Source of the DNA: Clostridia bacterium
Lineage (GTDB): Bacteria > Bacillota > Clostridia > Oscillospirales > Acutalibacteraceae
Direction of reading: 5' to 3'
Assembly: GCA_017437005.1 (NCBI GenBank)
Contig: JAFSBZ010000017.1
Coordinates: 30,599-94,598, forward strand
Length of the DNA stretch: 64,000 bases
Positions 9,732 through 63,980 of this stretch are shown in pieces. The translations under genes and the position numbers were made by a program. Numbering within the stretch: the first letter of the stretch is position 1; the number at the start of each line of letters is the position of its first letter. Under the pieces are notes generated by a model. That model was not told the origin of the DNA, did no database searches, and worked only from the letters and a program-made list of their open reading frames with translations.

Positions 9732-9756
9732 CTCGGTGCTGTTTTAGCACCGAGTT
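9732..9756. terminator. Bidirectional terminator between convergent genes
   Basis: The perfect 10-bp stem ACTCGGTGCT / AGCACCGAGT with a five-base loop lies between the convergent YwaF-type and isochorismatase genes; a T-rich run follows on the plus strand. Confidence 0.85.
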
Positions 9757-9763
9757 TATTTTT

Positions 9764-10288
9764 TTATATCACATTTATCTGACAGCAACGCATAGTATCA
9801 AGCGCGGCATTGTGTGTTTGCGGCGTAACACCCGCACAGCAAGCTGCATCAACATAAATTTCGGCATCTAACAAATTAGCCTTTAAAAGCAGCGCATTAG
9901 ACACAACGCATATATCGGTACAAAGACCAATAAGTGTAATTTTGGCTTTATCTTCACCGATTTTTTGTTCAATTAATTTTGGCAATTCGACCGAACCAAA
10001 CGTTAATTTTTCTACCGTTTTATAGTCTTTATCCTTTAATGCTTCGGCGATTTTACAATTTAATTCCCAACCCTTTGTCCCCTTTATACAGTGCGGCACA
10101 GGTAGCTTTTTGCCCTCTTGCGTTTCCATATAATTATCAAAATGAGTGTCATAGGTTACAAAGATATCACCATTAAATTTTTTAATTTTTTCTGCGGCAT
10201 TATCTACAATTGCTTGTGCCTCGGCGGTGCCTAAAGCGCCGTCAATAAAATCGTTTTGCATATCTACTACAACTAAAATATTTTTCAT
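9764..10288 (-). CDS. Isochorismatase-family cysteine hydrolase (nicotinamidase-like)
   Basis: Starts at the ATG at 10288, with AAGGAAG upstream; 174 residues. The catalytic triad of the family is visible: Asp in VVVDMQNDFIDG near the N-terminus, Lys in the VEKLTFGSVE stretch, and Cys in LIGLCTDICVVSNALLL. The cis-peptide-like segment before the cysteine is also in place. Nicotinamidases (nicotinamide to nicotinate) have this arrangement, but the metal-binding Asp-x-His set is only partly evident, so the substrate is left open. It lies antisense between two duplicated YwaF-type genes. Confidence 0.78.
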   Translation of the reverse strand: MKNILVVVDMQNDFIDGALGTAEAQAIVDNAAEKIKKFNGDIFVTYDTHFDNYMETQEGKKLPVPHCIKGTKGWELNCKIAEALKDKDYKTVEKLTFGSVELPKLIEQKIGEDKAKITLIGLCTDICVVSNALLLKANLLDAEIYVDAACCAGVTPQTHNAALDTMRCCQINVI

Positions 10289-50531: not shown

Positions 50532-52352
50532 ATGATTCGTGCACATGTACTTATTTGTGGCGGTACTGGCTGTACCTCATCAGGTAGTAAAAAAATTCAG
50601 GAAGCATTTGAGCAAAACATTGCAGCTGCAGGTCTTGAGGAAGAAGTAAAGCTCGTTCAGACAGGCTGTTTTGGTCTTTGTGCATTGGGTCCTGTTGTTA
50701 TCGTTTATCCTGATGGTACTTTCTATAGCCGTGTTACCACAGACGACGTAAAAGAAATCGTTGAAGAGCATCTTCTTAAAGGCCGTCCTGTAGAGCGTTT
50801 GGTTTACAGCGACACAGGTGCCGAAGAGGTCGTAGAGGCTGCAAGCGTATCTCTTAACGATACAGCATTCTACAAATCACAAAACCGTGTTGTTCTTCGT
50901 AACTGCGGCGTTATTGACCCTGAAAACATAGACGAATACATCGCTATGGACGGTTACGCAGCACTTGGTAAGGTTCTTACCGAAATGAAGCCTGAAGACG
51001 TTATCCAAACTGTTTTAGATTCAGGTCTTCGCGGTCGTGGTGGCGGTGGCTTCCCAACCGGTCTTAAATGGAAATTCTGCGCTCCTAACAAGGCAGCTCA
51101 GAAATATGTAGTATGTAACGCCGACGAGGGTGACCCAGGTGCATTTATGGACCGTTCAGTTCTTGAGGGTGACCCACACTGTATTATTGAAGCTATGGCA
51201 ATTGCAGGTTATGCAGTAGGCGCTACAAAGGGTTACGTATATGTTCGTGCCGAGTACCCAATTGCTGTTGCTCGTTTGCAAAAGGCTATTGATCAGGCTA
51301 ACGAATACGGTCTTCTTGGTAAAGACATCTTTGGTTCAGGCTTTGACTTTGACCTTCAAATTCGTCTTGGTGCAGGCGCATTCGTTTGCGGTGAAGAAAC
51401 CGCTCTTATGACATCTATCGAGGGCAACCGTGGTGAACCACGTCCACGTCCTCCATTCCCTGCTGTTAAGGGTCTTTACAACTCACCAACAGTTGAAAAC
51501 AACGTTGAAACCTTTGCTAACATTCCACAAATCATCCTTAAGGGTGCTGACTGGTTTAAGACTATGGGTACCGAAAAGGCTCCCGGTACAAAGGTATTTG
51601 CACTGGGTGGTAAGATTGAGCACACAGGTCTTGTAGAAATTTCTATGGGTACTACACTTCGCCACATTATCGAAGATATCGGCGGCGGTATTCCTAACGG
51701 TAAGAAATTTAAGGCTGCTCAAACAGGTGGTCCTTCAGGCGGTTGTATTCCTGAATCACTTATTGATACCGAGGTTGACTTCGACAATCTTACAGCCATT
51801 GGTTGTATGATGGGTTCAGGCGGTCTTATCGTTATGGACGAAGACAACTGTATGGTTGATATGGCTAAATTCTTCCTTGAATTTACCGTTGACGAGTCTT
51901 GCGGTAAGTGTACTCCTTGCCGTGTTGGTACAAAACGTCTTCTTGAAATGCTTGACAAGATTACCGAAGGTAAGGCAACACTTGAAGACCTTGATAAGCT
52001 TGAAGAGCTTTGCTACTACATTAAGCAAAACTCTCTCTGTGGTCTTGGTCAGACAGCTCCAAACCCTGTACTCGCAACACTTAAGTTCTTCCGTGACGAG
52101 TATATTGCTCACGTTGTTGATAAAAAGTGTCCTGCAGGCGTATGTAAAGATCTTCTTACATTCGTTATTGATAAAGACAAGTGTATCGGTTGTGGTCTTT
52201 GCGCTCGTAATTGTCCTGTTAGCGCAATTGAAAAGACCGACTACATAGCACCCGGTCACAAGCTTGCTTCTTACGAAATTGATACTACCAAGTGCATTAA
52301 GTGCGGCGTATGTATCGGCAATTGTAAGTTTAAAGCAATTAGTAAAGTATAA
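50532..52352 (+). CDS. hydB: NuoF-like NAD(H)/FMN subunit of [FeFe] hydrogenase (HydB type)
   Basis: A 606-residue flavoprotein. In order: an N-terminal [2Fe-2S] domain (CGGTGCTSSGS, TGCFGLC), the NuoF core with GLRGRGGGGFPTGLKW (FMN/NADH site), NADEGDPGAFMDR and GAFVCGEETAL, a soluble-ligand-binding (SLBB) part, the NuoF 4Fe-4S site SCGKCTPCR, and two C-terminal [4Fe-4S] clusters (CIGCGLCARNC, CIKCGVCIGNC). It oxidises or reduces NAD(P) and, in bifurcating enzymes, splits electrons with ferredoxin. Full length and intact. Confidence 0.95.
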   Translation: MIRAHVLICGGTGCTSSGSKKIQEAFEQNIAAAGLEEEVKLVQTGCFGLCALGPVVIVYPDGTFYSRVTTDDVKEIVEEHLLKGRPVERLVYSDTGAEEVVEAASVSLNDTAFYKSQNRVVLRNCGVIDPENIDEYIAMDGYAALGKVLTEMKPEDVIQTVLDSGLRGRGGGGFPTGLKWKFCAPNKAAQKYVVCNADEGDPGAFMDRSVLEGDPHCIIEAMAIAGYAVGATKGYVYVRAEYPIAVARLQKAIDQANEYGLLGKDIFGSGFDFDLQIRLGAGAFVCGEETALMTSIEGNRGEPRPRPPFPAVKGLYNSPTVENNVETFANIPQIILKGADWFKTMGTEKAPGTKVFALGGKIEHTGLVEISMGTTLRHIIEDIGGGIPNGKKFKAAQTGGPSGGCIPESLIDTEVDFDNLTAIGCMMGSGGLIVMDEDNCMVDMAKFFLEFTVDESCGKCTPCRVGTKRLLEMLDKITEGKATLEDLDKLEELCYYIKQNSLCGLGQTAPNPVLATLKFFRDEYIAHVVDKKCPAGVCKDLLTFVIDKDKCIGCGLCARNCPVSAIEKTDYIAPGHKLASYEIDTTKCIKCGVCIGNCKFKAISKV

Positions 52353-52369
52353 GAAAGGAGCCAAATATA

Positions 52370-54124
52370 ATGGATATGATTAACGTAAAAATTAACGGTA
52401 TTGCAGTAAGTGTACCACAGGGCTCCACAGTATTAGAGGCTGCCCGCGTAGCAGGTGTAGAAATTCCTACCCTTTGCTTTATGAAAGAACGCAACGAAAT
52501 TGGCGCTTGCCGTATTTGTATGGTAGAGGTTAACGAAGGTCGCGGTTTCCGTATGGTTACTGCCTGCGTATATCCTTGTACCGATGGTATGGAGGTTATC
52601 ACTAATTCAGAAAAAGTTCAAAAGTCACGTAAGACTACACTTGAACTTATTCTTTCAACTCACGATAAAAAATGTCTTTCTTGCGCACGTTCTACCAACT
52701 GCGAGCTTCAAAAGCTTTGCCGTGATTACGGTGTAGATGAAGGCGCATTCGACGGCTTTAAGCCGGTTTACGAGCTTGACTACAGCACACCACACCTTGT
52801 ACGCGACAACAACAAGTGTATTCTTTGCCGTCGTTGCGTAGCAGTTTGTGAAGAGCAGTATGTAAGCGTTATTGGCGCAAATGACCGTGGTATTGACACC
52901 AACATCGGTCAGGCATTTGAGCTTTCACTCAACAACACACCTTGTATCTCTTGCGGTCAGTGTACTGCAGTTTGTCCTACAGGCGCTCTTACCGAAAAGG
53001 ATGATACAGACAAGATTTGGGCAGCTTTGGCTGATCCTACCAAGACAGTTGTTGTTCAGACTGCTCCATCAGTTCGTGCAACCTTGGGCGAATGCTTTGG
53101 TATGCCAATCGGCTCAAACGTAGAGGGCAAAATGGTAGCCGCTCTTCGTCGTCTTGGCTTCGCAAAAGTATTCGATACCAACTTTGCAGCTGACCTTACA
53201 ATCGTTGAAGAGGCTAACGAGCTTATTGACCGCGTTAAGAACGGCGGCGTGCTTCCGATGATTACCTCTTGCTCACCAGGTTGGGTTAAGTTCTGCGAAT
53301 TTTATTACCCAGATATGATTAATCATCTTTCTACCTGTAAGTCACCACAACAGATGGCTGGCGCAGTTATTAAGACATACTGGGCAGAAAAAGAAGGCAT
53401 TGACGCTAAAGATATCGTAAGCGTATCTGTAATGCCTTGTACTGCCAAGAAGTTTGAAATTGGTCGTGACGATCAGTCTGCTGCAGGTGTTCCTGACGTT
53501 GATATTGCTATCACAACACGTGAGCTTGGCCGTATGATTGAGCGTGCAGGTCTTAACTTCGTAAATCTTCCTGACGAAGACTTTGATAATCCACTCGGTG
53601 AAGATACCGGTGCTGCTGTTATCTTTGGTGCAACAGGCGGCGTTATGGAAGCAGCTTTACGTACAGCTAACGACTGGATTAGCGGTAAAGACAACGCTGA
53701 CGTTGACTACACTGCAGTTCGTGGCACAATGGGACTTAAGCAAGCTACTGCTAAGCTTGGCGATATGGAAGTTAAGGTTGCTGTAGCGAGTGGCGCTGCT
53801 GCTGCAAAGGTTGTTATGGACAAGATGAAGGCCGGCAACCCAGACGGTTGGACCTTTGTTGAAATTATGGGATGCCCTGGCGGTTGCGTAAACGGCGGCG
53901 GTCAGCCAATTCAGCCACAGTCAGTACGTGACACAGTTGATTTGAAGGCCGTTCGTGCTAAAGCACTCTACGACCAGGATGCTGCAAGCGCTATTCGTAA
54001 ATCACACGAGTCACCTGTTGTAAAGGCACTTTACAGCGAATGGTACGACGGTTTTGGCGGCCACAAGGCTCACCACGACCTCCACACAAGCTATGTAACT
54101 CGTAAGAAATACAACGCTGAATAA
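52370..54124 (+). CDS. hydA: NADH-dependent [FeFe] hydrogenase catalytic subunit, group A
   Basis: Makes or oxidises H2 at the H-cluster. The 584 residues contain a [2Fe-2S] domain (C36, C47, C50, C65), a His-Cys [4Fe-4S] site (HDKKCLSCARSTNC), two ferredoxin clusters (CILCRRCVAVC, CISCGQCTAVC), and the three catalytic motifs TSCSPGW, MPCTAKKFE and GCPGGCVNGGGQP, all canonical. A small-subunit-like tail follows. With HydB and HydC it forms the trimeric NAD(H)-linked enzyme of fermentative Clostridia. Maturation genes hydE, hydF and hydG are not in the window. Confidence 0.96.
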   Translation: MDMINVKINGIAVSVPQGSTVLEAARVAGVEIPTLCFMKERNEIGACRICMVEVNEGRGFRMVTACVYPCTDGMEVITNSEKVQKSRKTTLELILSTHDKKCLSCARSTNCELQKLCRDYGVDEGAFDGFKPVYELDYSTPHLVRDNNKCILCRRCVAVCEEQYVSVIGANDRGIDTNIGQAFELSLNNTPCISCGQCTAVCPTGALTEKDDTDKIWAALADPTKTVVVQTAPSVRATLGECFGMPIGSNVEGKMVAALRRLGFAKVFDTNFAADLTIVEEANELIDRVKNGGVLPMITSCSPGWVKFCEFYYPDMINHLSTCKSPQQMAGAVIKTYWAEKEGIDAKDIVSVSVMPCTAKKFEIGRDDQSAAGVPDVDIAITTRELGRMIERAGLNFVNLPDEDFDNPLGEDTGAAVIFGATGGVMEAALRTANDWISGKDNADVDYTAVRGTMGLKQATAKLGDMEVKVAVASGAAAAKVVMDKMKAGNPDGWTFVEIMGCPGGCVNGGGQPIQPQSVRDTVDLKAVRAKALYDQDAASAIRKSHESPVVKALYSEWYDGFGGHKAHHDLHTSYVTRKKYNAE

Positions 54125-54133
54125 TTAAAAACC

Positions 54134-54169
54134 AAAAGCACTTGCTATAGTGATATAGCAAGTGCTTTT
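54134..54169. terminator. Terminator after hydA
   Basis: Perfect 15-bp stem AAAAGCACTTGCTAT / ATAGCAAGTGCTTTT with a six-base loop; ends the hydrogenase operon and may serve the converging membrane-protein gene too. Confidence 0.9.
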
Positions 54170-54190
54170 CTTATTACTTTTTCTTATTAC

Positions 54191-54487
54191 TTAATACCCT
54201 TTTATTGCATGTATAATTAAATAAATTATAATAATCGCTGCGGTAACTCCAGGCAAAATAAATTTGACTGTATATTGCATAGTGTCAGTTTCGGAACCAC
54301 TTGATTTGTCGAAAAAATACAAACCTGTAACAAGTAGCGCATATAACGGTATAAAAACCAAAAAATCAATACTTCTAAATAAATCAGCACTGTAATTAAA
54401 ATACATATATGCGACAACACCGACAAAATACGCAAAGGATATTTTAAACCAAAACTTATAATCTCTCCAAAATTTTTCAGTTTTCAT
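54191..54487 (-). CDS. Small membrane protein at the end of the glycan operon
   Basis: A 98-residue protein with three hydrophobic segments and no known domain. The preferred start, ATG at 54487, lies inside the last codons of the serine hydrolase gene (an 11-base overlap), so it is coupled to it. No strong ribosome binding site is visible. Function unknown. Confidence 0.6.
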   Translation of the reverse strand: MKTEKFWRDYKFWFKISFAYFVGVVAYMYFNYSADLFRSIDFLVFIPLYALLVTGLYFFDKSSGSETDTMQYTVKFILPGVTAAIIIIYLIIHAIKGY

Positions 54488-55667
54488 TGCTTGTACCCAA
54501 ATCTTTATACAGTGCATTTCTTATTGCGCTCTGGTCGGGAGAATTACCCATTATATTTTGAAAATATGTAAGAGATACGTGGTTTATTGGGTCCACCATA
54601 GAAAATGCTCCTGCGGCGCCATCCCAACCAAATTCGCCCACAGGGCTTATAGTACCACTGGTTTCTGGTCGCATATGTACGCGCACACCAAGACCGTAGC
54701 CATAACCGCGGCGCATCTCGTCAAAATCGTCTGCTGCCGCTCCACTTACATGGTTAGTACCCCATAGTTTTACAGTTTCTTCTTTTAATATACGAGCACC
54801 CGTTTTACCTACACCACCACAGGCAACCATATCAAGAAATAATGCGTAATCCTCGGTAGTAGAGGTAAGGCCTGCGCCGCCGCTTTCGTACTCAGGAGAA
54901 ATGTTATATACACATTTTAAAGCTTCTTTTTTGAATACCGGCGGATTACCAAAATAACTATAGAGTGACGGCATTTTAGATTTATCTTCAGGCACACCAA
55001 AAAAGGTGTTTTTCATACCGAGTGGCTCAAATACATTTTTGCTCATATAATTGCCCAACGTTTCGCCCGACCAAATTTCAATAAGTGCGCCCAAAACATC
55101 GTGACAAAGGCTATATCTAAAACGAGTACCCGGCTCAAAGCCGAGTGTTTTATTTGCCATAGCACATACTAATTCTTGCGTGGTTTTTTTACCCTCGGCA
55201 GCAGCATTTCTCAATACATCGTCATAAAGGCTATAATCAAGACCCGCCGTCATGGTAAACAGATGCTTTACAGTAATTGGTGTTTTAGCGTAGCCGTCAT
55301 CGGTTACATCGACGTTTTCACCCACACTTTGACCACTTGCAATCTTTTTAGCGTTTTCGGTGTTAAGAGCATCGGCGGTTATCTTCATTTTGCTAAATTC
55401 GGGCAACCATTTAGAAATTTCGTCATCAAGACCATATTTACCCTGTTCAAGCAACTGCAGTGCACAACAGCAGGTAATCATCTTGGTCATTGAGTATATA
55501 AAGTATTGCTCATCACCTTTAATTTCGCCGCCGTTTTCTATATCCATAACACCTGTAAAATAGCGATATAATAATTCGTGATTGCGGTAAACAGCCACAT
55601 CAACACTCGGTCTTAGTTCATCGCTTACAAGCTCATCCATACATTTTTTAAGATTGCTAAAATTCAT
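54477..55667 (-). CDS. Serine hydrolase of the beta-lactamase class C / esterase family
   Basis: A 396-residue protein with the penicillin-binding fold motifs: S59-x-x-K62 (YSMTKMITCCCALQLLEQG), the tyrosine motif in FRYSLCHDVLG, and FGWDGAAG where beta-lactamases have KTG. There is no signal peptide, so it acts in the cytoplasm, more likely as an esterase or deacylase than as a beta-lactamase. It follows the GH29 gene by 12 bases, which suggests removal of ester groups from sugars released by the fucosidases; this is inference. Confidence 0.85.
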   Translation of the reverse strand: MNFSNLKKCMDELVSDELRPSVDVAVYRNHELLYRYFTGVMDIENGGEIKGDEQYFIYSMTKMITCCCALQLLEQGKYGLDDEISKWLPEFSKMKITADALNTENAKKIASGQSVGENVDVTDDGYAKTPITVKHLFTMTAGLDYSLYDDVLRNAAAEGKKTTQELVCAMANKTLGFEPGTRFRYSLCHDVLGALIEIWSGETLGNYMSKNVFEPLGMKNTFFGVPEDKSKMPSLYSYFGNPPVFKKEALKCVYNISPEYESGGAGLTSTTEDYALFLDMVACGGVGKTGARILKEETVKLWGTNHVSGAAADDFDEMRRGYGYGLGVRVHMRPETSGTISPVGEFGWDGAAGAFSMVDPINHVSLTYFQNIMGNSPDQSAIRNALYKDLGTSNEN

Positions 55668-55679
55668 AATATCTCCTCT

Positions 55680-56882
55680 TTACCACTCAATTTCAATTAC
55701 AATTGGCTCGTCTGCATATTTATCGGCATCAATTCCGTATATATGAAGCAACTCATCTTGGTTTGTCTTTGACATATCCATAAATTCGGGCAACGGAATA
55801 ACGTTGTAGTGAAGCACTTCACCCGAATTGACAAATCTAACACATTTAGGAACGTTAGGATAATTTTTAATTGCTACTGAATTTGAGATAATTCCCTCAT
55901 AAAAATGCAAATAGGTTTTCCCATTTTTTATGTTAGCTATGTATTTATTGTTTTTTATGCCATAATCAGTATCGTCAGCTTCGTGACATTCAAGGCAGCC
56001 GTTCATTCTATTATACCAATCAGAAATCTTTAAAAGATTTTGTTTGTATTCGTCGGTTATAACGCCTTTTTTATCGGGACCTACATTAAGCAGATAACTC
56101 GCCCCTGCCGACATATATCGATCAATTGCAGAGCACAAATGACGCTTGGTGTAAAAATCCTCGCCCACGCGATAACCCCAAGAGTGTACGCCGACAGAGT
56201 TACAGGCTTCGGTCATACGGGTAAAGCGACCACTGTTTTCCGCCTCGTATTCTCGCTCAGGAGTAGAAAAATCGCCTTCGCTCCAACCACGGTCGTTTAT
56301 GTAAATATCGGGTTGCAGTTTTCTTGCAAGTTCATTTAAAGACGGATCATAAATACACGGTGGTATGTCCCAAAATAGCGTGTAAATATCACCATAATTT
56401 GTAAGTAATTCAGTTATCTGCGCTTTAATAAACTCTCGCAGTTTTACTGTATCTACTTTAGTCTTATACTTAGCGCCCCATTGATGCGACTTGCTTTCGG
56501 GATTGTAGCCATATTCATAATGCCAGTCAGGATTGCTGTAATAAAGTGATAATAACATACCATGTTTTTTGCACGCATCTGCTAACATTTTGAGCACATC
56601 CTTACCATAAGGCGTGTTCATTATATTATAATCTGTGGCCTTTGTGTCCCACATACAAAATCCATCATGGTGCTTGGCAGTAAAACAGATGTATTTCATA
56701 CCGCACTTTTTTGCAAGCAACACCCATTCTTCAGGGTTATATTCAGTAGGATTAAACTGCATAGCCATTGCTTCATATTCAGTATATGGAATATTATAAC
56801 GCGCTAATGCCTGCTCGTGAAGACCAAACGTGGCATACGGACCCCAATGAATAAACATGCCAAATTTGTTATCAAATTTCAT
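55680..56882 (-). CDS. Alpha-L-fucosidase, GH29, cytoplasmic (gene 1)
   Basis: A 400-residue GH29 retaining fucosidase: FGMFIHWGPYATFG, TAKHHDGFCMWDTK (substrate HHDGF), LSLYYSNPDW, and the nucleophile-bearing strand LFWDIPP, with Asp in the place of the usual WFDG. The C-terminal beta domain is short. No signal peptide, so fucosides are imported first. Twenty bases separate it from the second GH29 gene. Linkage preference cannot be read from sequence alone. Confidence 0.9.
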   Translation of the reverse strand: MKFDNKFGMFIHWGPYATFGLHEQALARYNIPYTEYEAMAMQFNPTEYNPEEWVLLAKKCGMKYICFTAKHHDGFCMWDTKATDYNIMNTPYGKDVLKMLADACKKHGMLLSLYYSNPDWHYEYGYNPESKSHQWGAKYKTKVDTVKLREFIKAQITELLTNYGDIYTLFWDIPPCIYDPSLNELARKLQPDIYINDRGWSEGDFSTPEREYEAENSGRFTRMTEACNSVGVHSWGYRVGEDFYTKRHLCSAIDRYMSAGASYLLNVGPDKKGVITDEYKQNLLKISDWYNRMNGCLECHEADDTDYGIKNNKYIANIKNGKTYLHFYEGIISNSVAIKNYPNVPKCVRFVNSGEVLHYNVIPLPEFMDMSKTNQDELLHIYGIDADKYADEPIVIEIEW

Positions 56883-56902
56883 AAAATCCTCTTGTGTTAA
56901 AG

Positions 56903-58177
56903 TTATTTTGCGTAAAATGCTTTTATATCTTTAATTACATAGTCGCCACTATAAGAATTAATTACTACCTCATATTTTGAAGCACGCAAAGGACTAAACT
57001 TACATATAACCTTATGTCCTATTGTTCTGCCCTCAAAAAGCAAAATCTTTTTATGTCTGTATGCAGGAAGGTAACCATAAACGCTAAACGATTCTACCTT
57101 TTGTCCGTTTGTAAGGTCCTCTTTAATCACAACACAGTTGGTAAGATTTTTTTCCTGTGGCTTTTTCCACTCGTCAGTAGGACCTGCTTCGTTATGCGTT
57201 ATTGTATATGTATCGCCGTCTTTTTCCATTTCGCCAAAGTTAGCGGGAGAACCATAACCTGCCTTAATACGCTCGCCGAGTTCTAAAATGCGCTTAACGT
57301 CAGCATCAGGCAAAAGTCCGCGATTGTCGGGACCAATGTTTATAAGAAAATTAGAGCCGTGACCTACCGACATTTCGTACATACCAAAAAGCTCGTCAAG
57401 GCTTTTAATGGTATCTTCATTGTGGTCATAAAACCAAGTTGCACGTAGTTTGCAGTCACATTCAGCCGGTAAAAATACCGCCTTTGAAAGCTTTTGCTCT
57501 TCGATTGCAAACTCCGAAAAATCGGTTGATGATACAACAAGCGGATTATTAAGCGAAGCGTAACCGTCCTCGTTACCTACCCAGCGCACACCGGGTGTCC
57601 ACTCAGGGTCACAGAAGGTGAGCAAATCGGGTTGCATTTCTCCCATAGCTTTTACAATGCGGGCTTTGTCATATTCGTGGCCCTCGCTACCACAGCCATC
57701 AAACCACAAATAGTCAATTTTGCCGTAGTTTGTAAGCAGTTCCGTAATTTGATTTATAAAATAATCGTCATATTCCTTTTCGTTTTCAAACGGAATTGAG
57801 TATTTACCCCATTGCGCAGGCGAGTAATATAAGCCTACCTTTAAATCATATTTGCGGCAAGCGTCAACAAACTCGCGCACAACGTCGCCTTTACCGTCTT
57901 TCCACGGTGTTTGAGCAACGCTGTAGTTAGAATATTTACTAGGCCACAACGCAAAGCCGTCGTGATGCTTGGTAGTAAGTATAGCATATGTAGCACCCGC
58001 TTCTTTAGCAACGCGAATCCATTTCTCACAATCCAGCTCAGTTGGGTTAAACTTTTCGGGCGGCATATCCTTGTTGTCCCAGTCAACGTGACCGGGGTAA
58101 AAGCTACGAATACCAAAATGGAAAAACACACCGTATTCCCAATCTAAAAATTCTACCTGTTTTTTAAAACCGTTCAT
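56903..58177 (-). CDS. Alpha-L-fucosidase, GH29, cytoplasmic (gene 2)
   Basis: A 424-residue GH29 enzyme with YGVFFHFGIRSFYPGHVDW, TTKHHDGFALWPSK, GLYYSPAQWGKYS and the classical nucleophile strand YLWFDGCGSEG. A C-terminal beta-sandwich follows from about residue 310. It differs strongly from the neighbouring GH29 gene, so the two probably cut different fucosyl linkages. No signal peptide. It starts 12 bases after the deacetylase gene. Confidence 0.92.
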   Translation of the reverse strand: MNGFKKQVEFLDWEYGVFFHFGIRSFYPGHVDWDNKDMPPEKFNPTELDCEKWIRVAKEAGATYAILTTKHHDGFALWPSKYSNYSVAQTPWKDGKGDVVREFVDACRKYDLKVGLYYSPAQWGKYSIPFENEKEYDDYFINQITELLTNYGKIDYLWFDGCGSEGHEYDKARIVKAMGEMQPDLLTFCDPEWTPGVRWVGNEDGYASLNNPLVVSSTDFSEFAIEEQKLSKAVFLPAECDCKLRATWFYDHNEDTIKSLDELFGMYEMSVGHGSNFLINIGPDNRGLLPDADVKRILELGERIKAGYGSPANFGEMEKDGDTYTITHNEAGPTDEWKKPQEKNLTNCVVIKEDLTNGQKVESFSVYGYLPAYRHKKILLFEGRTIGHKVICKFSPLRASKYEVVINSYSGDYVIKDIKAFYAK

Positions 58178-58189
58178 AAAAATGCTCCT

Positions 58190-59221
58190 TTATTTACCGC
58201 CCTTTGCTGCATCGACAATATTTGTAACCATACCTCTGTTATTATCGTAATCTTTAAGCTCGCCCGAAATTTGATCTATTGTAATACCGCGCAACCTCAT
58301 AAGCTCACTTATAGAGCAAAAACGATATCCGGCCCTAAAGTAATCAGGCAATACTTCTTGTATAATTTCATAGGTGTTTTGGCTCGTTTCGTGACAAAGA
58401 ATAATATCTCCGTCTTTCCAAGTGCCTATACCCTTTTTAAATACATTATAGCTGTCTTCTTTTGAATTGCTACCCCAATCAAGTGCATCATAACTAAGCC
58501 ATATAACCGCCAAATTTTCTTCACCGCATATCTTAAATGTATTTGCAGTTGGTTTAATATTAGGCGGTCTGTAAAAACTTACTTCATACGGTGAGCCGTC
58601 ACGGAATTTAAGATTAGATTCAAGCTTGTGTATAAGATTTGTTATATCGGCTTTTATCTCATCGTATGTTGCTTCTCCGCCGCCGGTACCACCAATGGTT
58701 GCCACAAGGTGATTATCACCGTGATTGCCAATATCCCAACCGTAGTTTATAGCATTTTGCATTTGCTTATATTCATAATCACCTTTAATGTTATGTCCAT
58801 TTACAAAAAATGTACCTGCTCCTTCAAACGCCGCAAAATACTGCACGTATTGTGGCATCAGGTCCTTTGGACCATCGTCAAAAGTGAAAGCAATCAGTTT
58901 AAAGTCTTGTGGGTGCGATTTCCACTCGTAGTCAATATTAATTTTATCGTCCTCAGCAGATGTGCTTGTTATCGAACTTGTTTGTGAAGTTGTTGTGCTT
59001 GGCTGCTCGCTTGAAGCCGGTGTATCCACGCTACTGTCATTGTTTGTAATTTCAGAACTAACAACACTCTCGTTTAACACTGTATCATCCCCTTCAACAA
59101 CTACCTCTTCTTCAACAATAACCTCCACATTATCTGACAAATCAGGTTCCGAATTGCCACAACCAACAAAAGAAGTTAGCATTAAAAGAGCTAATAAAAA
59201 AGCCGTTATTCGTTTATTCAT
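58190..59221 (-). CDS. Lipoprotein polysaccharide deacetylase (NodB homology, CE4)
   Basis: A 343-residue membrane-anchored enzyme: signal MNKRITAFLLALLMLTSFVGC, a Ser/Thr/Glu-rich linker of about 75 residues, then the NodB domain with TFDDGPKD (catalytic and metal Asp), HGDNH (metal histidines), FYRPPN and LCHETSQNT near the end. It removes acetyl groups from N-acetylated glycans at the cell surface, either peptidoglycan or nutrient glycans. Start ATG at 59221. First gene of the operon running to 54191, and the only exported protein in it. Confidence 0.88.
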   Translation of the reverse strand: MNKRITAFLLALLMLTSFVGCGNSEPDLSDNVEVIVEEEVVVEGDDTVLNESVVSSEITNNDSSVDTPASSEQPSTTTSQTSSITSTSAEDDKINIDYEWKSHPQDFKLIAFTFDDGPKDLMPQYVQYFAAFEGAGTFFVNGHNIKGDYEYKQMQNAINYGWDIGNHGDNHLVATIGGTGGGEATYDEIKADITNLIHKLESNLKFRDGSPYEVSFYRPPNIKPTANTFKICGEENLAVIWLSYDALDWGSNSKEDSYNVFKKGIGTWKDGDIILCHETSQNTYEIIQEVLPDYFRAGYRFCSISELMRLRGITIDQISGELKDYDNNRGMVTNIVDAAKGGK

Positions 59222-59283
59222 CCAAAAAACTCCAATCGCCATTTTCTAAACTGATTTTAACATTACAAAGATATAAAGTCAAT

Positions 59284-59312
59284 AAAAAGCAGTGAGTATT
59301 CACCGCTTTTTA
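59284..59312 (-). terminator. Terminator after the GH36-like gene
   Basis: AAAAAGC-GTGA / TCAC-GCTTTTT hairpin with one bulged pair and a T run on the minus strand. Confidence 0.65.
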
Positions 59313-59322
59313 TTTTAAAAAA

Positions 59323-61341
59323 TCATTTAATTCTTACCCACACAAAACTGCGTTGTTCGGCAAATTTAATCGTAATACTATTTCCGCTTATATTAATATC
59401 CATAGGCGAATTTTGGTAGATAATCTCTACATTTTTACCATCAATATTATCAGGTAGTTTAAATGTATAGGTATCATCACTTGTAGCCTCACGGAACAAA
59501 ATAAGGTTATAGGTTTTATTCTCAACATTTTTACAAGCATATCCAGAAAACGTCATTCCGTTTGGCATATCGCCAATTGGAATTACGCGTGAAGCAAATA
59601 TCTCTTGCTTATATTTTTTATAAACATTTGAAATTTTGGCAAGCGTTTCGGCATAGTCATCATCAAGATTGCTCATTTCCATCCAAAAAAGAGGATTAGC
59701 TACCATAACCGTCGCAAACAAATAATCAGGACTATATGTATTTGGTGCAAATAATACACTCTCGTAATTTTTTGTGTTACGTCTTGTGTTAAGCAACTCC
59801 ATCTGCAAACGACGGGTTGGTATAACGTGGGCCAAATTCCATAAATTTTTAAACGTGTTATGCGGGAAATAGTTTGTAAAATCGGTGTAACGGTTTTCTA
59901 CAAAAAGGGTACCAAACTGCGACATATACATATAGCCAAAGCGGTCCTCGGCGGTTACGTCAAGGTTAAAACGCATATCACCATGAGTTAGGTTTGTAAG
60001 CTCCTCGAGTAGCTTTATAAAACGCATTTCACAAAGCTTGTTACGAATTTTTACGCCGTCAAGCTTGAAATATCTAACACCGTATGTATTATAAAGGTTC
60101 ATAAGTGTGGCAACATCTTTTTTATAGTTTTCAAAATCATTTGACGAGTCGGGGCTAAACCATAGACCAAATTCAATGCCATATTCACGCGCTTTGTCAA
60201 CCACCGTTTTTAGACCGCTTGGAAAACGCTCGTGATTAACTGCCCAAAAGTCGCTGTTGTCGGCATAATAGCCTTCCCAAACACCGCCCTTCTTACGAAG
60301 CGAGTTTGCTGTAACGCCAAGCTGCCAACCGTCGTCGATTTGAATTATATCAACACCCATTTGACGAGCTCGCTCAATTTCACGCAACATAAACGACTCG
60401 CAAACCGCCATATCTTGACTGCGGTCGCCCCAGGTGTTTGACATACAAAACAGTGATTTCCTTGGGTCATCAAGACAAAAGGCGGTATTATATTGCCACA
60501 TCTCATCATATATATCAGCAGTTTTGCCCACACCCACAGCCGATGCGTAATATGGCACCTTGCCGTCAGGTAAATCGTTAAAATCAATACCCGTACCGTA
60601 AAGTGTTGCATACACGTTACCCTGCATATAAAAATCTTTGTTTTTGCGATTAAGTGCCGAACTTTCGGTTGGCGAATGTTTAATCATCATAATTGAGTTA
60701 TCGCTTGTATAATCGTTTATACAAAAAACGTTACCTTCGCGATAAAGTTCACCATTTCTAAAAGAATAAACACTGGCGTTTTGCTTTTCTACAAGCATAT
60801 CGTTATAGTCGGTTTTGTCATAAAGTTTGTAAGACTCAACGCTTAAATGACGGCAAGACATTGGAATACTGTCAAGAATATCAAAATCTACCTTATCATT
60901 TACAGCCGTCTTATTTTGCTCTTCCTCAACACCGGTAGGTCCTGCTTTTGTTGTTGTTTCTTCCGCAATAACAACATTGCCTAATTTAGAAACAAAATTT
61001 TGATTATATATAAAACTGATTTCGGGGAATATTAAATACTCGTACCAAGCGGAGCCCTCTCTACCTTTTAAGCAAAGTGATGCCTTAAGGTGGGGCTTCA
61101 TAATGTAAGGATTTTCTAATATCTTGGTTTCAAAGATTATTTCGGGAATTTCATCCGCATTAAGCACAGGACTGCGTTGCCACAATGAAGTACCCGACCA
61201 TTCAAAACCGTTTACAACGTCACGCACGTTTTCGGTACGAACAGAACTACCGTCTATTTTTATAATCTTTTCTACCTTACTGTTACCAAGTCGAACAGTA
61301 GCGGTGTTTTCATCATAATAAGCAAAACAATCCTTTAACAT
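59323..61341 (-). CDS. Alpha-galactosidase-like glycosidase, clan GH-D (GH36 type)
   Basis: A 672-residue intracellular glycosidase. An N-terminal beta-sandwich of about 270 residues leads to the barrel: DIIQIDDGWQLG, YGIEFGLWFSPDS, and the nucleophile strand RYFKLDGVKIR, with DVTAEDRFGYM and VENRYTDFTNYF in the region that normally holds the acid/base aspartate. A C-terminal beta domain ends the protein. It removes alpha-galactosyl groups (raffinose type or host glycans). The acid/base motif is not the usual CSGG type, so alpha-N-acetylgalactosaminidase or another GH36 activity is possible. Own promoter and terminator. Confidence 0.78.
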   Translation of the reverse strand: MLKDCFAYYDENTATVRLGNSKVEKIIKIDGSSVRTENVRDVVNGFEWSGTSLWQRSPVLNADEIPEIIFETKILENPYIMKPHLKASLCLKGREGSAWYEYLIFPEISFIYNQNFVSKLGNVVIAEETTTKAGPTGVEEEQNKTAVNDKVDFDILDSIPMSCRHLSVESYKLYDKTDYNDMLVEKQNASVYSFRNGELYREGNVFCINDYTSDNSIMMIKHSPTESSALNRKNKDFYMQGNVYATLYGTGIDFNDLPDGKVPYYASAVGVGKTADIYDEMWQYNTAFCLDDPRKSLFCMSNTWGDRSQDMAVCESFMLREIERARQMGVDIIQIDDGWQLGVTANSLRKKGGVWEGYYADNSDFWAVNHERFPSGLKTVVDKAREYGIEFGLWFSPDSSNDFENYKKDVATLMNLYNTYGVRYFKLDGVKIRNKLCEMRFIKLLEELTNLTHGDMRFNLDVTAEDRFGYMYMSQFGTLFVENRYTDFTNYFPHNTFKNLWNLAHVIPTRRLQMELLNTRRNTKNYESVLFAPNTYSPDYLFATVMVANPLFWMEMSNLDDDYAETLAKISNVYKKYKQEIFASRVIPIGDMPNGMTFSGYACKNVENKTYNLILFREATSDDTYTFKLPDNIDGKNVEIIYQNSPMDINISGNSITIKFAEQRSFVWVRIK

Positions 61342-61498: not shown

Positions 61499-61534
61499 AA
61501 AAGAACGGAAAATACAACTATTTTCCGTTCTTTT
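61499..61534 (-). terminator. Terminator after the SAP-nuclease gene
   Basis: Perfect 16-bp stem AAAAGAACGGAAAATA / TATTTTCCGTTCTTTT with a CAAC loop, six bases beyond the stop codon. Confidence 0.9.
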
Positions 61535-61540
61535 CTATTC

Positions 61541-63079
61541 TTATAAATTCAATAGCTTTATGTCAAATCTTCCATTTTGCTTGAAATAACCTAAATTAAA
61601 TATTTCGCCATTGTGATATTTATTCCATTTTTCTGCAACGGTTTTTAATTCCTCTGCGGTTATCAATAAAATTTGAGTATCATTATTCAACGAGTAATCA
61701 ACGCATTCCTGTATGCTTTGTGGCGTAAATTCTGGTGCGATAACCATAAATACAACAACATCCTTATCGGATGATTTGATATATCTATCAAATTGTTGTA
61801 TATGATCCTTAAGATTTACAGCAGTTTCTTTTGATTTATTATCCCACATAATATATTTATCTTTGAATGAAAGTTTTCCATCAGGATGATCTGTTCCCGT
61901 CAAAGTAAGTGGTTTGTTTAATAAAATTTTTTCAAATATATAATTTGTAGCATCTTCGAAATAGTGTTCACACTGTAAATCTTTCTCAATAATATTATTT
62001 GCTCGCAAGAACTTCAAATCTCGTTTTGCTAATTCATAATAAACAGAAACTAATTTTTCTCTATTATCTTCTGTTTTTAATTCTATTCGTCGAATAGAAT
62101 CGTAATATTCTAACAATCTATCAATCAATGCCTTTTTTGTACCAGAAACATTCAAACCTAAATCTGCACACCAATTTGAAAGAGTTTCAACGTTCATACC
62201 ATCGTATATTGAAAATCCACCTATCAAATGCGAAGGTTGTACCGACCTTAAAATAATTGACTTAAGTTCATTAACGGTTAAATTGTTTGATATTTCAATA
62301 TCCGCAATTTTATAATATTTACTTGCCTTTGTAGTAATATCTACCAAATATTGTTTTTTAGTTTTTTTAATTACATAATCAACTAATTTTTCATATCCGT
62401 AGGAACGAATTTCAATATTATAATATTTTCTTATTTCTTTTGCTATATCATCAGGTATCATATCACACATTATACCATCAGAATTTTTTATTGACACTAA
62501 CAAACCCTTTGATTGTAAAACGCGCCGAGTTATATCAATCTCTTCATAAGTGTGTAAAGTATTGCCGAAATTAGGAAATCTACCTGATTTAGCTTCTAGT
62601 ATTTGCTGTTCATATATAGTTATTGATAAATATTTTCTTAAATTTTCTAACAGGTTTTTTTCATCAATAGAAATATCATTATTATGCGCCCACGCTGTAT
62701 CAAGCATATACTTAAACAAAGATAAATCTTTTGAAATTTTATCTATTTCAAAATTATTAGACTCATCAATAATACTTTTTTCATAGTTCAAAACTGCAGA
62801 ATCTGTATCTTTTGAACTTGAAATAAAATCATCTTGATCAAGTAAATAGTCGCGTAATAAAATAGGTGCAATAATTCTGACTGATCTGTTATTATCAAGT
62901 TTAATTTCGTCTAAACGATTAGATATATTTTCAAAAGATGTATATTGTTTCTCTGTTTTTTTCAAAAAATCTTTTATTTCCTCAAACTCTAACCGTCTAT
63001 AATCTGCAACATATGCTGATGCTATTTTCTTAGCGATAGTTATATTAGGTATTAGATCAATATATTGCATAAAATTCAT
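61541..63079 (-). CDS. SAP-domain PD-(D/E)XK nuclease, putative restriction-type defence enzyme
   Basis: A 512-residue soluble protein, AT-rich compared with its neighbours. The first 280 residues are helical and of unknown fold. A SAP-type DNA-binding helix pair follows at 295-325 (MNVETLSNWCADLGLNVSGT, then KKALIDRLLEY). The C-terminal part reads as a PD-(D/E)XK nuclease: TDHPDGKL (D400), MWDNK (D413, K415) and HIQQFDRYI (Q428/Q429), with hydrophobic strand VVVFMVIAP after it. No methyltransferase is adjacent. It faces the XRE gene across two operators, the layout of controller-protein-regulated restriction genes. Ribosome binding site GGTGAT. Confidence 0.68.
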   Translation of the reverse strand: MNFMQYIDLIPNITIAKKIASAYVADYRRLEFEEIKDFLKKTEKQYTSFENISNRLDEIKLDNNRSVRIIAPILLRDYLLDQDDFISSSKDTDSAVLNYEKSIIDESNNFEIDKISKDLSLFKYMLDTAWAHNNDISIDEKNLLENLRKYLSITIYEQQILEAKSGRFPNFGNTLHTYEEIDITRRVLQSKGLLVSIKNSDGIMCDMIPDDIAKEIRKYYNIEIRSYGYEKLVDYVIKKTKKQYLVDITTKASKYYKIADIEISNNLTVNELKSIILRSVQPSHLIGGFSIYDGMNVETLSNWCADLGLNVSGTKKALIDRLLEYYDSIRRIELKTEDNREKLVSVYYELAKRDLKFLRANNIIEKDLQCEHYFEDATNYIFEKILLNKPLTLTGTDHPDGKLSFKDKYIMWDNKSKETAVNLKDHIQQFDRYIKSSDKDVVVFMVIAPEFTPQSIQECVDYSLNNDTQILLITAEELKTVAEKWNKYHNGEIFNLGYFKQNGRFDIKLLNL

Positions 63080-63112
63080 AAAATATCACCACATTATAAT
63101 TAATATACTTAA

Positions 63113-63141
63113 ATTCTACCGCAATTTGCGGTAGATGTCAA
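63113..63141 (-). promoter_or_regulatory. Nuclease promoter with operator 1 in the spacer
   Basis: On the minus strand TTGACA (63141-63136) and TAGAAT (63118-63113) are 17 bases apart. The perfect palindrome CTACCGCAATTTGCGGTAG (63116-63134) fills the spacer and touches the -10 box. Confidence 0.75.
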
Positions 63142-63142
63142 T

Positions 63143-63167
63143 ACCGCAAATTGCGGTTACTTATAAT
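63143..63167 (+). promoter_or_regulatory. XRE promoter with operator 2
   Basis: The palindrome ACCGCAAATTGCGGT (63143-63157) lies five bases upstream of a perfect TATAAT (63162-63167), with no good -35 box. Its centre is 25 bases from that of operator 1. Confidence 0.7.
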
Positions 63168-63186
63168 AAATTTGGTGATATTATAT

Positions 63187-63399
63187 ATGTTCGAAAGAGT
63201 ACGTAATCTTCGCGAAGATCGCGATTTAACACAAAAACAGGTTGCACATGAACTTAATTGTTCCCAACAAGTTTACAGCAATTATGAGCTGGGGCAACGT
63301 GATTTACCAACAGATATTTTAATAAAACTTTCAAAATTTTATAATGTCTCTATCGATTATATTTTAGAAATAAGCAATAATCCAAATATACAAAAGTAA
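63187..63399 (+). CDS. XRE-family regulator, controller-protein-like
   Basis: A 70-residue protein that is almost entirely one helix-turn-helix domain (LTQKQVAHELNCSQQVYSNYELG, residues about 14-36) with the tail LPTDILIKLSKFYNVSIDYIL. The size and layout resemble the C proteins of restriction-modification systems. The ATG at 63187 has GGTGAT seven bases upstream; the longer frame from 63151 runs through operator 2 and is rejected. It probably binds both ACCGCAA-N-TTGCGGT palindromes and controls itself and the divergent nuclease. Confidence 0.82.
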   Translation: MFERVRNLREDRDLTQKQVAHELNCSQQVYSNYELGQRDLPTDILIKLSKFYNVSIDYILEISNNPNIQK

Positions 63400-63422
63400 G
63401 CCGTGAAAATTTCACGGCTTTT
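63398..63422 (+). terminator. Terminator after the XRE gene
   Basis: Stem AAGCCGTGAAA / TTTCACGGCTT followed by TTAATT; overlaps the stop codon. Confidence 0.8.
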
Positions 63423-63471
63423 AATTATTATATATGATATATTTCACTGACGTGCGATAAGTTATCAGTTT

Positions 63472-63600
63472 ACAGTTATGAATTTGCCTAAAGGCAAATG
63501 TTATGATATATTCGCTATTATAACTGTGTGCTTAGCACACATCATAACTTGTACGCAAGTACAATTATAACACATAACTCGCCGCAAGGCGAATATAACT
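63472..63600. repeat. Array of small variable hairpins separated by ATAACT
   Basis: Four palindromes with different stems, ATTTGCCT/AGGCAAAT, GTGTGC/GCACAC, TGTAC/GTACA and CGCC/GGCG, each with a two- to four-base loop, are separated by (T)ATAACT or its inverse GTTATGA and a short AT stretch. Non-coding. It occupies the gap between the XRE gene and the 5S rRNA gene. Confidence 0.75.
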
Positions 63601-63636: not shown

Positions 63637-63750
63637 GTGTTGGCATCTACTTATTTTCCCAGGCAGCTGCCCGCCAAGTATCTTCAGCGCAAGTGAGCTT
63701 AACTTCTGTGTTCGGTATGGGAACAGGTGGACCCTCACCGCAATCAACAC
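63637..63750 (-). rRNA. rrf: 5S ribosomal RNA
   Basis: On the minus strand the sequence has the universal 5S core CCCATACCGAACACAGAAG and GATACTTGGCGGG, with the closing stem GTGTTG (63750-63745) / CAACAC (63642-63637). About 114 nt, ends set by that stem. It lies downstream of tRNA-Glu and tRNA-Asn; 16S and 23S are not within the window. Confidence 0.93.
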
Positions 63751-63756
63751 CAACTA

Positions 63757-63832
63757 TGGCGCCTCAAGTAGGACTCGAACCTACGACAACTCGGTTAACA
63801 GCCGAGTGCTCTACCGACTGAGCTATTAAGGC
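63757..63832 (-). tRNA. tRNA-Asn (anticodon GTT), CCA encoded
   Basis: Cloverleaf on the minus strand: acceptor GCCTTAA / TTGAGGC (one G-U pair), D arm TAGCTCAGTCGGTAGAGCA, anticodon stem CTCGG with loop CTGTTAA (anticodon GTT), T arm GTAGGTTCGAGTCCTAC, discriminator G and an encoded CCA. Confidence 0.95.
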
Positions 63833-63904
63833 GTATTTGTGCGTGCCTTACGGCACTTATATATTAAACAGTATGCACTGTTTAATGCAAATTATGATAA
63901 AATT

Positions 63905-63980
63905 TGGTGACCCGTACGAGATTCGAACTCGTGTTGCCGGCGTGAGAGGCCGGAGTCTTAGGCCACTTGACCAACGGGCC
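63905..63980 (-). tRNA. tRNA-Glu (anticodon CTC), CCA encoded
   Basis: Cloverleaf on the minus strand: acceptor GGCCCGT / ACGGGTC, anticodon stem CCGGC with loop CTCTCAC (anticodon CTC, codon GAG), T arm with GAGTTCGAATCTC, discriminator A and encoded CCA. Upstream neighbour of tRNA-Asn in what looks like one transcript. Confidence 0.93.

Follow-up and report, generated by a model that had tools for sequence, protein, structure and literature searches.

The window analysed here is a stretch of 64,000 nucleotides from a Clostridia bacterium (GenBank assembly GCA_017437005.1, contig JAFSBZ010000017.1); its end is the end of contig C14 of a genome of 1.97 Mb in 49 contigs. Within its last 2.5 kb lie two divergent open reading frames (ORFs), 107 bp apart. 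The first, on the minus strand (61541..63079), codes for a protein of 512 residues with a SAP domain and a predicted FokI-like nuclease domain of the PD-(D/E)XK type; the second, on the plus strand (63187..63399, with its ATG at 63187), codes for a protein of 70 residues of the XRE type (HTH_3, E 4.6e-16) that resembles autorepressors. We propose, at a probability of roughly 0.6, that these are two independent elements side by side, a stand-alone nuclease gene and an XRE cassette that would have replaced the native promoter of the nuclease. All our results are inferences from sequence, and many of the genomes compared are metagenome bins.

A promoter scan of the gap between the two genes placed a nuclease-side promoter on the minus strand, with the -35 box TTGACA (63136..63141), a 17-bp spacer and the -10 box TAGAAT (63113..63118), and an xre promoter on the plus strand, with a weak -35 box TCAATA (63138..63143) and the -10 box TATAAT (63162..63167). 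A palindrome search found two putative operators. O1, a perfect 21-bp palindrome, TCTACCGCAATTTGCGGTAGA (63115..63135), lies inside the spacer of the nuclease-side promoter, and O2, a 15-bp palindrome, ACCGCAAATTGCGGT (63143..63157), lies directly 5' of the xre -10 box; the nuclease-side -35 box is between them. The operators share the core ACCGCAA(A/T)TTGCGGT, and the two cores are 25 bp apart. At least one palindrome of the same grade occurred in 438 of 5000 dinucleotide shuffles of the 107-bp gap, and at least two in 20, a count that did not require any likeness between the two; because so few shuffles gave two palindromes of any sequence, two that are alike are well beyond chance. The exact core is unique within its own assembly, which is 85% complete, and two other places match it at one mismatch. 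The earlier note, made from the letters of this stretch, had described the divergent pair of a 512-residue SAP protein and a 70-residue XRE protein, two near-identical palindromes 25 bases apart with one in each promoter, and an AT-rich composition, and we recovered all of these; G+C is 0.27-0.30 in two 1-kb bins over the nuclease gene versus 0.35-0.48 for the bins that span 52000-60999. It had also noted terminators on both sides. The hairpin 3' of xre (63398..63420) is flagged as terminator-like on both strands; the one 3' of the nuclease gene (61499..61534) is flagged on the plus strand only, though its minus-strand reading also ends with a run of T.

The XRE protein has 12 further matches in its own genome at E 0.001 or better, and a match at E 1e-22 or better was found in 50 of 349 genomes of the taxonomic family, the own genome included. 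We examined the 20 best matches (the window and L078-L096), that is, the best-scoring part of the protein family. At least two copies of ACYGCAAWTTGCRGT, with up to two mismatches, lie upstream of 17 of the 20 genes, 25 bp apart in 16 and 26 bp apart in one; L091 has one copy, and L094 and L095 have none of this type. A divergent promoter with an operator in its spacer was found in 18 of the 20, at 10-12 out of 12 in a score without a shuffled control. L095 keeps the same layout with another operator, AGCGTAATTTCCGCT, and its recognition helix reads SQRVYSNYE; the corresponding region of the window protein is SQQVYSNYE. The layout also recurs, with other operator letters and with 0-3 of 500 shuffles as good, in four of the eight host paralogues that could be placed (L046, L047, L049 and L051). 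One of them, L046 (C41:66709-66897 of the own genome), combines the operator ATAACA with the helix SQVAYSHYE; L054 and L056 had no site to score.

The genes that the XRE homologues face are of other kinds. Among mechanically called ORFs of at least 60 residues, the closest one upstream is on the opposite strand for 19 of the 20 genes. Ten of these divergent partners were scanned: three carry BspA-type leucine-rich repeats, three are of zinc-ribbon type (one with DUF4352), one is a bacterial PH/SHOCT protein and three had no match over the cut-off. When 315 genomes of the order were searched with a pattern of the cassette's DNA only, eight matches were found (the own genome included) versus none for the reversed control. 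All eight lie directly upstream of an XRE gene (65-100% identity) and face another ORF, which is the nuclease only in the window. Two genomes, G059 and G831, hold both a nuclease and the cassette or an XRE homologue, on different contigs. Judged by these comparisons, the cassette is the XRE family's own architecture, independent of the nuclease, and its conserved layout agrees with the earlier suggestion that the XRE protein plausibly binds the operators. The XRE protein was matched by 30 phage records at E 1e-8 or better (62.5% for the first listed), and the pattern had no exact match in viral contigs; since the protein resembles phage repressors, a phage origin of XRE may be considered. Its best NCBIfam relatives are the RstR-type phage repressors (NF041951; 48.7 bits, against a cut-off of 80), and its best relative among solved chains is the Xre regulator of ICEBs1 (7t8i). 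Unlike in the RstR and ICEBs1 settings, we saw no phage genes and no genes of an integrative and conjugative element (ICE) beside XRE.

The earlier note had likened the XRE protein to the C proteins that control restriction nucleases, a reading in which the methyltransferase would be unlinked. C proteins are helix-turn-helix (HTH) activators or repressors that time nuclease expression (PMC3874152), with operators at their own and the nuclease promoters (PMC3874152, PMC6237814). The window resembles this in having operators in both promoters and a weak xre -35 box. It differs in that we found no restriction-modification system here, that XRE homologues in other places stand opposite other genes, and that operators within promoter spacers suit repression. 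In addition, the control-protein models of PADLOC score below several general HTH models for XRE, the relatives of the nuclease lack the XRE gene, and neither D12 nor C5 methyltransferases are shared by all genomes that bear the nuclease (see below). We regard control of the C-protein type as quite unlikely; the operator architecture belongs to the XRE family.

The nuclease appears to be built of three parts. Residues 1-280 (62240..63079, minus strand) could be assigned to no family and are conserved among relatives. Residues 292-326 (62102..62206, minus strand) match the SAP domain PF02037 with E 2.4e-10 and 40.2 bits, against a cut-off of 23.9, and the same domain was matched at E 0.1 or better in 25 of 27 family members. 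Residues 367-485 (61625..61981, minus strand), with D400, D413 and K415, align with cleavage domains of the FokI type, a likeness that we first presumed and then tested by profile. PF09254 (FokI_cleav_dom) was matched at E 0.1 or better in eight of the 27 members (best E 2.6e-4). Using hhalign, we compared an alignment of 15 nuclease C-termini with one of C-termini of PF09254 proteins, taken from five of six loci (PF09254 occurs in 6 of 291 genomes). The match had a probability of 94.9% and an E value of 4.6e-8, versus a probability of 0.04% for a control with the N-terminal alignment of the nuclease. It pairs the PDG (D400) and D413-N-K415 of the window protein with the PDG and DxK of FokI-type domains, which we take to be the positions of the FokI catalytic residues. 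All 27 aligned sequences, one of them from a haloarchaeal virus contig, have D400, G401, W412, D413, N414 and K415, and a pattern scan found [PA]DG…WDNK at every nuclease-bearing locus scanned except L006. These results support the PD-(D/E)XK-type nuclease reading proposed earlier, as a FokI-like C-terminus recognised by profile and below the Pfam cut-off. As in FokI, a Type IIS enzyme, the cleavage domain is C-terminal; unlike FokI, the nuclease has no methyltransferase partner that we could find, and its N-terminal half and SAP domain stand in place of FokI's recognition domains.

Other matches of the nuclease were set aside as chance: 29 chains, all of 14-3-3 sigma, at E 0.23 and worse for the N-terminal profile against solved structures; weak Pfam matches (ENT, HipA_2, DUF1843, VP9 and others); and PADLOC matches to SIR2, PDC-S21 and MTase_II. 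Whole-protein queries against solved structures gave weak matches in the SAP region or chance matches only. The window nuclease had no match in PADLOC-DB 2.0.0, of which three families were weakly matched by two, one and one of the 27 members.

Nuclease homologues are scattered. Matching genes turned up in 6 of 295 order-level, 5 of 391 class-level and 2 of 200 family-level genomes, the own genome being counted each time. The genome_contigs set holds 30 loci, four of which are truncated gene copies; their titles name metagenome-assembled Clostridia, Clostridiales, Eubacteriales, Oscillospiraceae, Ruminococcaceae and one Erysipelotrichaceae, and many come from gut samples of goat, sheep, roe deer, water buffalo and yak. 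A search of the locus ORFs found an XRE gene of the window type facing the nuclease in the window's own copy only. Of 28 other loci that extend 500 bp or more upstream, none has it, a count that leaves out duplicate contigs, the truncated L037 and L041-L043, the archaeal L007, L008 and L044, and L040, with 112 bp upstream. ORFs with other XRE domains occur downstream of the nuclease at 365 bp (L016), 1.4 kb (L039) and 2.4 kb (L015), and 7.4 kb upstream on the same strand in L029. The neighbouring genes vary between loci, and few are defence-like as far as seen. The self-contained two-gene module of the earlier note fails here, because homologues occur without the XRE gene, a finding that the note itself had named as telling against it.

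The same count bears on the idea of a toxin-antitoxin-like pair, in which XRE would neutralise or repress a self-toxic nuclease. XRE antitoxins are common, and the XRE protein is weakly similar to antitoxin models; with no XRE opposite the nuclease at any of those 28 loci and a clear promoter of the gene's own in most relatives, such a pair is highly improbable. A small repressor that adjoins a defence-type nuclease gene also resembles RptR, the repressor of a Type I defence island; RptR is reported to be strongly associated with Type I restriction-modification systems (PMC12255303), unlike the XRE-nuclease pairing, which we saw once.

What most relatives have instead of the cassette is a promoter of a common type, of the sigma-70 kind. 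In 20 of 29, the gene is preceded by TTGAC[AT], a spacer of 17 bp (18 in L023), TANNNT and a leader of 17-22 nt, and 19 of these 20 promoters carry the TG of an extended -10 box. The nuclease promoter in the window, with which 19 native promoters were aligned, lacks the TG and has a 33-nt leader. Taken one by one, several of the 20 scores were also attained when the AT-rich leader was shuffled (in up to 70 of 300 shuffles); what makes the native promoter telling is its constant position before the gene, not the single scores.

Few methyltransferases are linked to the nuclease. A crude motif scan of ORFs of at least 200 residues covered 426 kb, made up of the window's last 15 kb and the 30 genome_contigs loci. 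It found a methyltransferase-like ORF at one of these 31 loci (L036; Type III, 1.3 kb from the nuclease) and none in the part from the window, in keeping with the earlier view that the nuclease has no methyltransferase of its own. Searched in trans, D12 methyltransferases were present in 2 of the 11 genomes with the nuclease versus 9 of 33 others, and C5 methyltransferases in 5 of 11 versus 15 of 33; the 11 include G284, whose nuclease copy lacks the motif. Neither type is common to all 11, PF01555/PF02384-type enzymes not having been searched in trans, and as a clue to the specificity of the nuclease the methyltransferase complement was uninformative. These data speak to the reading of the nuclease as an ordinary orphan Type II restriction enzyme, its methyltransferase unlinked or its own gene unexpressed. 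Solitary restriction enzymes are known; in one survey, 57 of 272 have a predicted distant methyltransferase (PMC3488263). Given the near absence of linked methyltransferases, the lack of a common D12 or C5 enzyme and the promoter kept by most close relatives, we consider an orphan enzyme doubtful.

The family is patchy and has probably spread horizontally. Identity does not track kinship: the class-level L009 is 80% identical to the window protein, and order-level relatives are 83, 62, 59 and 30% identical. A 21%-identical protein of 546 residues occurs in one haloarchaeal virus and one plasmid. Three relatives of about 21-23% identity, L008:5446-7086, L007:5446-7086 and L061:8001-9638, keep DG…WDNK; their sources are a halovirus (Humcor1), a Natrinema plasmid and an IMG/VR contig. 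In seven of eight pairs of unlinked copies, DNA similarity starts at about -50, the -35 box, and ends at most about 27 bases from the stop codon. The eighth pair, L015/L016, has a 2.25-kb unit in common at 95%, which includes a four-helix-bundle gene, and its flanks differ. A gene of this kind (TIGR02436) adjoins the nuclease in L015, L025 and L032, and in L016 by similarity. The ratio of nonsynonymous to synonymous substitution rates (dN/dS) was 0.032-0.041 in the 7 of the 14 closest pairs listed that have dS below 1.4; dS is moderate for L024/L025 alone (0.32, ratio 0.037), L015 and L016 hardly differ, and the remaining values of dS are so large as to be rough. The C-terminal part is the more conserved, with a mean pairwise identity of 0.73-0.86 in the last five 32-residue bins versus 0.58-0.68 before.

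A near gene-exact unit, patchy spread and strong purifying selection would also suit a selfish or mobile single gene, a homing-like endonuclease whose cutting aids its own spread to new sites. Its insertion sites are diverse and often within 1 kb of a tRNA gene, and one copy (L027) lies between direct repeats of about 85 bp or more (7840-7935 and 9740-9840). Profile scans of the nuclease and its relatives matched no known homing family, and the neighbouring genes vary by locus. Flanking direct repeats were found at 4 of 25 loci only (L022, L027, L031 and L036) and are for this reason not general insertion marks; a common target was not searched beyond these repeats. We think a selfish gene unlikely. 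Separately, in L024:5678-10188 the nuclease has on one side a tyrosine-recombinase-like gene, which adjoins tRNA genes, and on the other a serine-recombinase-like gene; neither recombinase reaches its NCBIfam cut-off, and this region is perhaps an integrative element. A defence scan of ten chosen neighbours found two of a defence type, PDC-S72 by L038 and the Type III methyltransferase by L036, which is not a rate, because the neighbours were picked. The former, L038:6523-7494, belongs to a candidate single-gene defence family (E 2e-127) and lies about 500 bp upstream of the nuclease copy.

The place of the pair beside a 5S/tRNA cluster, taken earlier for a common integration site, is indeed a variable slot. 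It is bordered by an alpha-galactosidase gene on one side and, on the other, by genes for 5S rRNA (63638-63754), tRNA-Asn and tRNA-Glu (63638..63980, minus strand, by RNA annotation). Among 61 genomes of the genus the alpha-galactosidase gene had six matches, the own genome counted; the slot side was compared in four of the remaining five, which leaves aside one that matches at 40%. In G898 the flanks are 78 bp apart versus about 2.1 kb in the window, which makes this an empty slot. In G855 it is filled by ORFs of 194 and 199 residues, and in G848 (L074, about 329-438) by the last 110 bp of the nuclease gene, then ORFs of 347 and 118 residues, then 5S; in G876 only the alpha-galactosidase end matches, with no 5S within the 5 kb examined. 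Because the contents differ among G898, G848 and G855, the slot is a site of turnover, and, as read from the remnant in G848, the nuclease or part of it was once present in that line at the same slot. Genes for tRNA lie within 1 kb at 9 of 27 nuclease loci, against 3.5 expected from random placement of the nuclease gene within the same loci (24 of 20000 placements as high). The association is moderate, since the excess weakens at 500 bp (5 versus 2.6 expected; 1675/20000) and 300 bp (5 versus 2.2; 903/20000). Hairpin-rich repeats lie 5' of the 5S gene at 63430-63600 of the window, and in the congener G848 a match to the Gut-1 RNA family (L074:2170-2241) lies directly before 5S.

The sequences compared show that there are two elements, that each stands on its own in other places, that the operator layout is conserved while its letters vary among XRE paralogues, and that the window lacks the family's extended -10 box; binding by XRE, repression, DNA cleavage and a role in defence are what we infer from them. 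The nuclease would consist of an N-terminal region, a SAP domain that binds DNA and a FokI-type cleavage domain, spread patchily as a single gene. It is best read as a stand-alone defence endonuclease, possibly modification-dependent. Because most close relatives have their own promoter and few loci have a methyltransferase nearby, we expect the enzyme to leave host DNA unharmed, as one expressed without a protecting methyltransferase should. The likeliest way would be for its cutting to be restricted to foreign DNA that is modified or marked in some other way, as in a type IV-like defence. The XRE cassette would be a bidirectional promoter with overlapping -35 elements and one operator in each promoter spacer, 25 bp apart. 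In the simplest history, the cassette came to lie upstream of the nuclease in the alpha-galactosidase/5S slot and replaced its native promoter, turning the gene from its own promoter to expression held by an autorepressor. XRE dimers on O1 would block the nuclease promoter, and O2 would set the level of XRE. We favour repression over activation of the C type because both operators lie in promoter spacers. A broader proposal, to which we give somewhat less than an even chance, is that a portable XRE cassette lands before unrelated Clostridia genes and takes over their expression, that operator and helix diversify together, and that here it captured a FokI-like nuclease.

Several observations weigh against the two-element reading or parts of it. 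For control by XRE, activation through O1, as in C proteins, would be possible because the xre -35 box is poor; no operators were found for the homologue L094, the host paralogues L048 and L053 were not beyond chance in the layout test, and a joint change of helix and operator rests, in two operator classes, on single genes. For promoter replacement, five relatives reach 10-11 out of 12 with different letters, as in the -35 box, or at different positions (L031, L033, L034, L036 and L039), and four of the 29 had no promoter above shuffles (L006, L012, L035 and L038). A relic of the native -10 box behind the cassette was not found beyond chance, 209 of 2000 shuffles being as good, so the case for replacement comes from comparison. 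As to the nuclease, PF09254 gave no match for the window protein and no member scanned reached its 25-bit cut-off, the best homologue scoring 20.9 bits; the C-terminal profile had no match among solved structures. The homologue L006:1363-2913, whose frame is intact and whose protein is 31% identical, lacks both PDG and WDNK, so that a non-catalytic branch of the family probably exists. With regard to defence, dN/dS values of 0.03-0.04 are lower than is usual for defence genes, and such low values would suit a housekeeping or selfish role too. An N-6 DNA methylase is annotated about 5.4 kb from the Natrinema plasmid copy, which lay outside the motif scan, and the enzyme that would protect host DNA might belong to a type other than the D12 and C5 enzymes searched in trans.

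Stand-alone, modification-dependent winged-helix fusion endonucleases of type IV, which are mostly without a neighbouring methyltransferase and are argued to spare host DNA for the same reason (PMC11037411), are a close parallel; unlike these, the nuclease has other domains as annotated, and its dependence on modification is our inference. A literature search of titles and abstract openings found no description of this nuclease family or of the XRE cassette.

Our analysis separates two things that looked like one system, the nuclease gene and the XRE cassette. The cassette offers a ready case for the study of joint change of repressor and operator and of a repressor circuit joined to new cargo, and its conserved operator pair is a compact bidirectional promoter that could serve genetic tools. 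The SAP/FokI-like nucleases, slowly evolving yet patchy in distribution, and reaching a haloarchaeal virus and plasmid at about 21% identity, would be candidates to test as a single-gene defence of Clostridia in the gut.

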